DNA of 64,000 nt, taken from contig NZ_FUYR01000002.1 in assembly GCF_900168015.1 (NCBI RefSeq), positions 702,932 through 766,931 of the forward strand. Direction: 5' to 3'. The stretch's first letter is position 1. Every line of letters begins with the position of its first letter. The notes under the pieces were generated by a model. It had not been told where the DNA came from. It saw nothing but the letters and a program-made list of their open reading frames with translations, and ran no database searches. Both the position numbers and the translations under genes were made by a program. Source of the stretch: Daejeonella lutea. GTDB taxonomy: Bacteria > Bacteroidota > Bacteroidia > Sphingobacteriales > Sphingobacteriaceae. Shown one piece after another: positions 6,493 to 31,740 of this stretch.

Positions 6493-7143
6493 ATGGCAAC
6501 TAAAATCAGATTGCAAAGATTTGGTAAAAAGGGAAAACCTTTCTACCATGTGGTGGTAGCAGACGCACGTGCTCCAAGAGACGGTAAATTCATAGAACGT
6601 ATCGGTTCTTACAATCCAAACACAAATCCGGCTACTATTGACATCAATTTCGACAAAGCGTTGGATTGGGTTAACAAAGGAGCTCAGCCTACAGACACTT
6701 GTCGCGCAATCCTTTCTTACAAAGGTGTAATGTACAAGAAACATCTTGAAGGTGGTGTTAAAAAAGGTGCTTTAACTGCTGAACAAGCTGAAACTAAATT
6801 TGCTGCCTGGTTAGATAGTAAAGAAGGTAAAATAGCTGGCAAAAAAGATAGCCTGACTAAATCAAAAGAAGAAACAAAGAAGAGTGCTTTAGCTGCTGAA
6901 GCAAAGAAGAAAGAGGAAATCGCGGCTGCAGTTGCAGCTAAAAACACTCCGCCTGCTGAAGAAGAAGTTGCTGAAGAAACTGAAGCTAACGACGTTGAAG
7001 AAACTGCAGTAGAGGAAACTCAGGCACCTGCAGCTGAAGAGGCTGAAGAAGCACCTGCTACTGAAGAAGTTGCAGAAACGCCAGCTGAGGAAGCACCTGC
7101 TGCCGAAGCAACGGAAGAAGCTTCTGACGAAGAGAAAGCATAA
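6493..7143 (+). CDS. rpsP: 30S ribosomal protein S16 with long acidic C-terminal tail
   Basis: The first about 85 residues are a standard S16 (start [21 protein letters not shown], then [14 protein letters not shown]), a 30S assembly protein. The total of 216 residues is more than twice the core length. The extension has a Lys-rich helix-like part (about 110-150) followed by about 70 residues made almost only of Glu, Ala, Thr, Pro and Val, which is low-complexity and probably disordered. Extended S16 proteins with Ala/Glu tails are common in Bacteroidota, so I take this as real and not a frameshift. First gene of rpsP-rimM-trmD-rplS. Confidence 0.95.
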
Positions 7144-7238: not shown

Positions 7239-7766
7239 ATGAAGATCGAAGATTGTTTTTATATCGGGTACATAACTAAAACTAAGGGCTTAAAAGGTGA
7301 AGTTCAGGTCTACTTCGAGTACGAAGCGCCGGAAGATCTTCTTCTCGAATCTGTGTTTGCTGAAATAAACGGTAAACTTGTCCCATTCTTCGTGTCATCT
7401 TACAAGCTCCAAAATAATCAGACGGGTAACTTCTATTTTGATGATATTGATACTATAGAAAAGGCTCAGACATTAATCCGGAAAAAACTCTATCTACCCG
7501 AGAAATTAAAGCCTGTTAGAGACGATGATGAATTTCTGATTACCGACCTTAAAGGTTTCATCGTTCACGATGAGACTGCGGGGGAGCTTGGTGAGATCAT
7601 TGAAATACATGAATATCCGCAGCAGTATGTTGCCGTCGTGCCATATAAATTTAAGGAGGTTCTTTTTCCACTAAATGATGATTTGATTGTGGAAATAGAT
7701 GAAGAGAATGGTATTTTAAAAGTTGATCTTCCCGAGGGTTTGATCGATCTTTACGTAGGAGATTAA
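7239..7766 (+). CDS. rimM: Ribosome maturation factor RimM
   Basis: A 175-residue RimM, which binds S19 and helps mature the 16S rRNA 3' domain of the 30S subunit. The N-terminal domain shows the family opening (YIGYITKTKGLKGEV-like, residues 8-22) and the C-terminal PRC-barrel part contains the conserved tail with LPEGLIDLY. The length is typical. It follows rpsP after a structured 95-bp gap and precedes trmD by 54 bp, the usual bacterial order. Confidence 0.93.
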   Translation: MKIEDCFYIGYITKTKGLKGEVQVYFEYEAPEDLLLESVFAEINGKLVPFFVSSYKLQNNQTGNFYFDDIDTIEKAQTLIRKKLYLPEKLKPVRDDDEFLITDLKGFIVHDETAGELGEIIEIHEYPQQYVAVVPYKFKEVLFPLNDDLIVEIDEENGILKVDLPEGLIDLYVGD

Positions 7767-7784
7767 GTGCCGAGTTTTCGCCCA

Positions 7785-7819
7785 AACTTATAACTTACAA
7801 CGTATAACCTACAACTTAT
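7785..7819 (+). repeat. Five tandem heptamers directly before trmD
   Basis: Five consecutive 7-bp units run without a gap: AACTTAT, AACTTAC, AACGTAT, AACCTAC, AACTTAT. Every unit follows AAC-N-TA-Y. The array ends one base before the trmD ATG, so it forms the whole translation-initiation region of that gene. No Shine-Dalgarno is present. Confidence 0.85.
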
Positions 7820-7820
7820 C

Positions 7821-8495
7821 ATGCGTTTCGACATTATAACGGTTCTTCCCGGATTACTTGAGAGTCCATTTGCTCATTCGATATTGCAACGGGCGCAATC
7901 AAAGGGGCTGTCGGAGATTATTGTGCATAATCTGAGGGACTATTCAAATCATAAGCAGAAATCTGTAGACGATTATCAATACGGCGGGGGCAGCGGTATG
8001 GTGATGACCATTGAGCCATTCGCCAACTGTATTGAAAAACTTAAGTCTGAACGCGAATATGATGAAGTCATATTCATGACACCTGATGGGGAGACCCTCA
8101 ATCAAACCATGGCGAACGAACTTTCCGGGAAAAAGAATATTATTATTCTGTGCGGGCATTATAAAGGGATCGACCAGCGTATAAGAGATATTTTTGTTAC
8201 CCGCGAAATATCCATAGGAGATTTTGTGTTATCGGGTGGTGAACTCCCCGCAGCAGTACTTGTTGACAGTATAGTTCGACTGCTGCCTGGAGTATTGAAC
8301 GACGAAACTTCGGCTTTGTCCGACTCATTTCAGGGTGAACTTTTGGATGCACCTGTTTACACCAGACCGGCCGATTGGAAGGGTCACAAAGTGCCTGACA
8401 TTTTACTGAGCGGGAATGAGGCAAAGATTAATGAGTGGCGCCATGATCAGGCTTTGGAACGAACGCAGAAGAGAAGACCGGATCTGCTGAAGTAA
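7821..8495 (+). CDS. trmD: tRNA (guanine-N1)-methyltransferase
   Basis: A 224-residue SPOUT methyltransferase that makes m1G37 in tRNAs with G36, preventing frameshifting. Family marks include [17 protein letters not shown] at the start, the [13 protein letters not shown] loop, the trefoil-knot cofactor segment [13 protein letters not shown], and [12 protein letters not shown]. The C-terminal end is complete with RRPDLL. The start codon directly follows a heptamer array. Part of the rpsP operon. Confidence 0.96.
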
Positions 8496-8522
8496 AAGAA
8501 TTACTAATTCCGAATTACAACC

Positions 8523-8550
8523 GTCAACTGTCAACTGTCAACCGTCAACT
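8523..8550 (+). repeat. Four tandem GTCAACY heptamers in the trmD-rplS gap
   Basis: Four gapless heptamers: GTCAACT, GTCAACT, GTCAACC, GTCAACT. The array starts 28 bp after the trmD stop inside the 210-bp gap before rplS. The period is the same as that of the array before trmD but the unit is unrelated. Confidence 0.85.
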
Positions 8551-31530: not shown

Positions 31531-31588
31531 AAACTTACGGGTTTCTGCTTCACCCAGGTTCCGATTTAACAATTTTAACAAAAGGAAG

Positions 31589-31616
31589 TATCAAGTGTCA
31601 GGTATCAAGAATCAAG
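31589..31616 (+). repeat. Heptamer array, left arm of an inverted pair
   Basis: Four gapless 7-bp units: TATCAAG, TGTCAGG, TATCAAG, AATCAAG. The same units recur inverted at 31712-31732, 95 bp away. Confidence 0.8.
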
Positions 31617-31711
31617 ACTTGCCACTGGATAATTTTAAACAGGGCTCCCGTATTAACCACTGCAGTATACCTTCAAGTATAACGTGAAAGTTCAAATCTA
31701 GAATGAACTAT

Positions 31712-31732
31712 CTTGATCCTTGATACCTGATA
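31712..31732 (-). repeat. Heptamer array, right inverted arm
   Basis: On the minus strand three gapless units TATCAGG, TATCAAG, GATCAAG. They can pair with the left arm over about 21 bp with a single mismatch, so the 145-bp element could form a long hairpin in RNA between the two minus-strand genes. Confidence 0.8.
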
Positions 31733-31740
31733 CGTGTTTC

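Follow-up and report, generated by a model that had tools for sequence, protein, structure and literature searches.

Tandem heptanucleotide repeats located between bacterial genes have so far been described piecemeal, as G-quadruplex formers, as translation signals built on one motif, or as the stem of an intron. Small dispersed repeats also occur in heptamer tracts of cyanobacteria. In Xanthomonas and Nostoc, the heptamers GGGAATC and GGGGA(T/C)T were studied as quadruplex formers, and their G-rich strand is reported to be antisense less than 50 bp upstream of an open reading frame (ORF) and sense less than 50 bp from a stop codon, which some of them overlap; inverted pairs in convergent orientation are described in Xanthomonas, and the repeats are under-represented between divergent ORFs (Rehm et al. 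2015, PMC4692102, where tandem heptanucleotides of Calothrix are also mentioned). TAACTGA direct repeats are known from marine Beggiatoaceae, some cyanobacteria, and five Bacteroidetes, as intergenic heptamers ending a few nucleotides from start codons, those of essential genes included; the same source describes one set lying directly past a stop in reverse orientation in Flexibacter litoralis, a Microcystis sample that departs from the polarity, and single-base variants that are rare as repeats in BOGUAY (MacGregor 2015, PMC4679880). As for the P6b stem of the Nostoc trnL intron, its arms are described as made of degenerate 7-nt motifs, of which one class replaces another in place, with length steps of 7 nt or 14 nt (Kaasalainen et al. 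2015, PMC4476775). For arrays of the kind reported here in Sphingobacteriaceae, we found no description in a literature queried mostly without taxon names and with few subscription journals covered.

The array under study lies in a 64-kb window of the Daejeonella lutea genome (the whole stretch of DNA analyzed, G000:C8:702932-766931), within an rpsP–rimM–trmD–rplS cluster whose gene identities are upheld by Pfam. There, a 54-nt spacer separates rimM (7239..7766, + strand; Pfam RimM and PRC_RimM; stop at 7766) from the tRNA (guanine-N1)-methyltransferase gene trmD (7821..8495, + strand; Pfam tRNA_m1G_MT, E value of 1.1e-61; ATG at 7821), and contains at 7785..7819, on the + strand, the five units AACTTAT, AACTTAC, AACGTAT, AACCTAC, and AACTTAT, followed by a C at 7820. 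This is as the earlier note had read it, namely five AAC-N-TA-Y units running in phase and ending one base before the trmD ATG. The consensus is accurate: the array varies solely at positions 4 and 7, and it is these two that vary most in other arrays of the same class, AACKTAY. Tandem Repeats Finder gives the array a score of 42 at period 7 and a better one, 56, at period 14. Three exact three-unit matches to the AACNTAY pattern, overlapping one another, are found in the window, when 0.35 matches would be expected even with up to 3 mismatches permitted, and given that no three-unit run occurred on either strand of 200 Markov-1 simulated windows, the array is not due to chance. Within the array, we found neither a Shine–Dalgarno-like run nor any run of three or more G capable of contributing to a G-quadruplex; no partner arm was seen in the rimM–trmD spacer, be it in D. 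lutea or in its nearest relative, and the only Rfam element of the window is one tRNA. With its end 1 nt before an ATG, the array is placed as TAACTGA repeats are, while its unit is AACKTAY instead of TAACTGA, and classes other than TAACTGA dominate in the family described below.

Within the genus, a scan of the 75 nt preceding the trmD start codon detected a period-7 array in 14 of 20 genomes, our own included, and the six others fall below threshold. Each of these 14 arrays has a mononucleotide-shuffle P of 0.008 or less, and the background of period-7 arrays before genes amounts to 28/541 in D. lutea (G000), 33/543 in its nearest relative (G013), 13/305 in G005, and 9/321 in G082, which belongs to another genus of the family, although setting 14/20 against this background is no formal test because the 20 genomes are related. 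Unit number upstream of trmD differs among the array-bearing genomes (about 2.6 to 7.6), which supports this part of the earlier note; of the two outcomes that it had named as telling against its reading, an invariant repeat across divergent species and an absence in close relatives with identical trmD expression, neither applies cleanly, since the repeat is not invariant and six of the 20 genomes are below threshold. Twelve of the 14 arrays are of other classes, their units being ATCTCAT, CTCAATA, AATTCTC, ACTCATA, and the like. In these same 12 genomes a TATCTTT(G/A) box (TATCTTTG or TATCTTTA) stands between the array and the ATG, the last base of the array overlapping the box in two of them; D. 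oryzae, for instance, has an AATTCTC array ahead of a TATCTTTG box. The main sigma factor of this phylum is reported to have TAnnTTTG as its -7 consensus (PMC7366714). With this promoter-like box between array and ATG, and with the caution that leaderless mRNAs are reported to be rare in Bacteroides, the array of these 12 genomes is probably located upstream of transcription, hence outside the mRNA, and a role as ribosome-landing region, which the earlier note had assigned to the array, would therefore not explain them; what stands of that claim is the location of the array in the spacer just before the ATG. The rimM gene ends less than 80 nt from trmD in 6 of the 20 genomes (G000, G013, L042, L043, L049, and L050). 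When 80 named loci were considered, 6 of which are genus genomes counted already, 11 (4 of these 6 among them) reached the threshold for period 7 upstream of trmD, when lags 5, 6, 8, 9, and 10 gave 0 or 1. In seven Pedobacter/Mucilaginibacter loci (L061, L079, L093, L099, L102, L107, and L125), outside the genus, the 75 nt upstream of trmD contain period-7 tracts that differ in sequence, most of them followed by a TTTGC-type box.

A signal specific to trmD was rejected, for the array belongs to a family that is found genome-wide. To delineate this family, we examined 674 kb of the 4.03 Mb of G000, 360 kb of G005, 400 kb of G082, and, in G013, 327 kb for lag spectra and 636 kb for the analyses of polarity, class, pairing, and unit identity; genes were called as ATG ORFs of at least 90 codons, longest first, a rule that misplaces some borders and overlooks small genes, and none of the counts includes the stretches L153 and L154 (picked for their many arrays), L201, or L202. 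The three-unit pattern of the AACKTAY class has 47 matches in G000, against 0 for the reversed pattern taken as control. Without recourse to any motif, the lag spectrum of the 674 kb of G000 places almost all tandem self-similarity of spacers at period 7 and its multiples: at lag 7 it yields 66 arrays in spacers, which make up 13% of bases, and 9 in coding sequence, when any other lag from 4 to 25, multiples of 7 excepted, yields 0 to 7 intergenic arrays; intergenic lag-7 arrays number 21 in the 327 kb of G013, 37 in G005, and 11 in G082. These are 7-nt tandem repeats lying mainly outside genes, as is characteristic of intergenic heptameric simple sequence repeats. The 223 intergenic arrays of the four genomes were sorted into seven classes (AACKTAY 72, ACTGTCA 38, ACTTTCA 35, ACYTGAT 24, GCTCATT 13, ACTGATT 12, and ACYTCAG 11), with 18 left over. 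In the AACKTAY class, neighboring units differ at a frequency of 0.35 at position 4 and 0.55 at position 7, as against 0.04 to 0.18 elsewhere. The distribution of the classes is limited: ACYTGAT occurs in 10/121 genomes of the family, and AACKTAY in 12 of 25 genera of the family and in 8/247 genomes drawn from the phylum. Around trmD, no clear lag-7 excess was found in the spacers of the 80 named relatives (514 kb; 3 intergenic and 2 coding arrays under a stricter score, with 0 to 5 intergenic arrays at other lags in the same sample), so the strength of the family differs within Sphingobacteriaceae. Array density per kb of spacer is 1.16 in convergent, 0.80 in tandem, and 0.52 in divergent spacers. 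Adjoining one heptad array of G000, a stretch of about 196 bp (L152 5651-5846, G000:C5:165651-165846) has many dispersed matches in G013, the longer ones at 69 to 81% identity and shorter pieces at higher identity.

The arrays also show a marked polarity with respect to genes. We oriented by class motif the arrays that have one gene border at most 25 nt away and the other no nearer than 50 nt, and their G-poor strand points toward the near border in 83 cases and away from it in 4 (four genomes), a count from which the 38 of 223 arrays without an assignable motif orientation were dropped and outside which stand the arrays that are not near exactly one border. The 83 are divided into 62 at stops, 24 of which overlap the ORF end (negative distance), and 21 at starts, and all 4 that point away are at stops; the trmD array, which points toward a start 1 nt away, obeys the rule. 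Neighboring arrays in one spacer are oriented -+ in 37 cases, +- in 2, ++ in 4, and -- in 5, and an orientation by base composition gives, on a smaller set, 79 toward versus 3 away and 37, 0, 4, and 3 pairs, respectively. Once the distance filter is removed, orientation by base composition leaves 126 arrays of the four genomes pointing to their nearest border and 38 pointing away, with 55 toward and 19 away in 422 kb of G000. Composition itself was rejected as the cause of this polarity, array-free spacers being only mildly biased (-+ 199, +- 125, ++ 148, -- 149). So were G-quadruplexes, which are not needed here, as only 3/223 arrays hold four runs of three G. The polarity corresponds to that of the Xanthomonas and Nostoc heptamers, whose G-rich strand is antisense ahead of start codons and sense past stop codons; it is already published for G-rich heptamers, and here it holds across classes and without quadruplexes. 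Two further sites of the window illustrate the variety of these arrangements. A single array of class AACYGTC (CAACYGT) at 8518..8549 (+ strand) breaks the polarity by distance, lying 22 nt past the trmD stop and pointing to rplS, 156 nt off; by eye, the trmD–rplS spacer of G013 contains a different class, AACGTAY, plus a reverse-complement arm. Tract detection also revealed an inverted pair formed by a left arm of class CTTGATA at 31586..31617 (- strand) and a right arm, CTTGATCCTTGATACCTGATACGTG, at 31712..31736 (+ strand); the corresponding spacer of G013 shows no period-7 tract and has 157 nt fewer.

The comparison of G000 with G013, whose TrmD proteins are 96% identical and whose median identity over 279 reciprocal best hits is 85.5%, gives a view of how these arrays evolve. 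Among 216 syntenic spacers, 51 are tight, 116 are array-free, 20 have an array in G000 only, 14 in G013 only, and 15 in both; 34 of the 49 array-bearing spacers are therefore above threshold in one species only, a count that depends on the threshold. A weaker period-7 tract (score of at least 6.5) is present in the other species in 14 of these 34 and absent in 20, as compared with 7/232 for array-free spacer sequences, so that gain and loss are real, yet the position often outlasts the detectable array. The array-bearing spacer is the longer one in 27 of the 34 one-sided cases (median excess of 60 nt, sign test P of 0.0008), when array-free spacers have a median absolute length difference of 9 nt. 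In the 15 shared spacers, the class judged by eye is the same in 5 (trmD, C4:38944, C4:61369, C4:165402, and C5:110206), clearly different in 6 (trmD–rplS, C5:39597, C5:63606, C5:88352, C5:110809, and C5:176421), and intermediate in 4. In the G013 counterpart of C4:61369-61619 (L138), a unit of about 99 bp containing one heptad array is apparently in tandem (offsets 171, 270, and 369), forming a second, longer period built on the array.

With these observations in hand, several explanations can be weighed. The one put forward in the earlier note, in which an essential methyltransferase would be translated at a rate dictated by gain or loss of units, would fit an array that abuts the start codon, varies in unit number across the genus, and recurs before trmD in most of its genomes. 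However, the nearest relative has nearly the same number of units (4.9 detected in G000 versus 4.7 in G013, about five each and of the same class), and the G013 array differs by three transitions and a change at its 3' end that alters the bases next to the start, from A-3 and C-6 in G000 to T-3 and A-6 in G013. In Flavobacterium, A at -3, -6, -12, and -13 is reported to favor initiation (PMC6847099); of these four positions, the trmD leader carries A solely at -3 in G000, and at -6 and -13 in G013. Moreover, the folded leader resembles its shuffles (z of 0.01 and -0.40), the promoter-like box commonly intervenes between array and ATG, and arrays of the same family follow stops genome-wide, where they are commoner than before starts. 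As the array is one copy of a genome-wide spacer family with a shared polarity, it seems unlikely that it serves as a dedicated control of trmD; the tuning reading is weakened, and we consider it improbable. A sequence-specific regulator, protein or RNA, that binds the arrays at gene borders could account for the position-specific constraint inside units (each of the seven classes holds one C position at a frequency of 0.90 or more) and for the fixed orientation, but the polarity is common to all classes scored and orthologous spacers switch class, so we give this possibility hardly any credence.

The inverted pairs invite two other readings. In the first, paired arrays would fold as heptad-phased hairpins, in RNA or as cruciform DNA, in a manner reminiscent of the Nostoc trnL P6b stem, and single arrays would have lost their partner. 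Arms of same-spacer pairs are indeed more often complementary than re-paired ones (20/47 versus 117/638, permutation P of 0.0002), which indicates that some pairs have a common origin or act as stems; moreover, both species keep inverted arms despite sequence change at 87029 and 92788 of the C8 piece (by eye). Yet 16 of 37 inverted pairs are made of different classes, inverted pairs occur in divergent spacers (8/47), where a single transcript need not cover both arms, tandem spacers show no clear strand-specific wobble excess (13 G-U versus 8 A-C in the sense strand), and the trmD array has no visible partner in its spacer in either species. RNA stems were rejected as the sole cause of polarity, as pairs of different classes retain it and the comparison of G-U with A-C is unclear; the lack of strand-specific wobble and the mixed classes together indicate that RNA pairing explains only part of the picture, and this stem reading seems unlikely to us. 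In the second reading, the arrays would be heptad-array terminal inverted repeats of a mobile element resembling a miniature inverted-repeat transposable element (MITE), and single arrays its remnants. Whole inverted units can be missing in one species, with no tract in their place and with spacers of 92 versus 1 nt at C5:105131, 215 versus 42 nt at C4:43118, and 210 versus 53 nt at window position 31531, and the AACKTAY class is patchy (31/121 family genomes). Against this, no core homology was found among 16 paired units (blastn-short, E value of 0.01), no target-site duplication stood out by eye in the 13 spacers displayed, the arms of one pair can be of different class, and at C4:72914 the G013 arrays flank a terminator-like hairpin common to both species (by eye). 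We therefore hold a mobile element to be very improbable.

On balance, we think it probable, with moderate confidence, that the trmD repeat is a single-armed member of a genome-wide intergenic family of degenerate heptanucleotides, grown by slippage and serving mainly as tolerated spacer, not as a dedicated regulator. What the data show for the family is period 7, several classes, confinement to spacers, polarity, inverted pairing, gain and loss, and class replacement between close species. Its arrays would grow by slippage or local tandem duplication: unit identity declines with distance (0.83, 0.816, 0.785, 0.763, and 0.75 at lags 7 to 35), which, together with the 7-nt phase and the lengthening of array-bearing spacers, fits local tandem duplication. 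Purifying selection would then confine the arrays to spacers, and the trmD array would be a mainly tolerated G-poor spacer inside the rimM–trmD transcript. The phylum begins translation without Shine–Dalgarno sequences, and a G-poor array may be harmless in such a setting. It counts against this explanation that neither the polarity nor the degeneracy restricted to certain positions would be predicted from slippage by itself. In addition, the excess of weaker tracts at one-sided spacers (14/34 versus 7/232) and of arrays before trmD (14/20 versus 28/541) indicates that certain places could be favored or selected, and the complementarity of arms leaves room for a part of the family that may act as stems. 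The trmD case illustrates how a repeat can abut the start codon of an essential gene and still be ordinary spacer.

Taken against the known systems, the Daejeonella arrays are like the Xanthomonas and Nostoc heptamers in being tandem arrays of spacers with the same polarity, inverted pairs, and fewest members in divergent spacers, and unlike them in that so few are quadruplex-capable and that seven classes exist, several per genome; furthermore, they are gained, lost, and switched in class from one close species to another, when an increased stability is reported around the Xanthomonas and Nostoc repeats (Rehm et al. 2015, PMC4692102). When rotated, TAACTGA reads ACTGATA, which is among the variants of one class found here, but the system described by MacGregor (2015, PMC4679880) relies on one fixed heptamer, when we observe many degenerate classes and a preference for stops over starts. 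The Nostoc P6b stem shares with our arrays the degenerate heptamers and the replacement of classes, and differs in being a single intron stem-loop to which gene polarity is inapplicable (Kaasalainen et al. 2015, PMC4476775). Since classes without quadruplex capacity obey the polarity at both gene ends and are swapped between species, the polarity is separable from the published functions and its cause becomes testable. As a tentative possibility, which we rate as rather doubtful, a DNA-level process could lay arrays outward from gene borders, with the 3' end of the G-richer strand extending into the spacer, thereby giving one polarity to unrelated heptads in Bacteroidota, Gammaproteobacteria, and Cyanobacteria, with no need for a transcription direction, G-quadruplexes, or a fixed heptamer. 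Were such a process at work, the identity of the heptamer would be swappable at a border, while position and polarity would persist.

Two minor features of the rpsP–trmD region can be mentioned in addition. The sequence CGCCCA, which directly precedes the trmD array (window 7778-7784), is perhaps a small dispersed repeat joined to arrays: it recurs within 70 nt 5' of 7 arrays in G-poor orientation, versus 0.68 expected, and CGCCCAG before 5, versus 0.24 expected, both k-mers having been picked off the ranked list of a 5' k-mer search. Further upstream, two copies of a 27-bp repeat (window 7024-7077) encode part of an Ala/Glu-rich C-terminal extension of ribosomal protein S16, which is here 216 amino acids long with a Pfam domain spanning residues 9-67.
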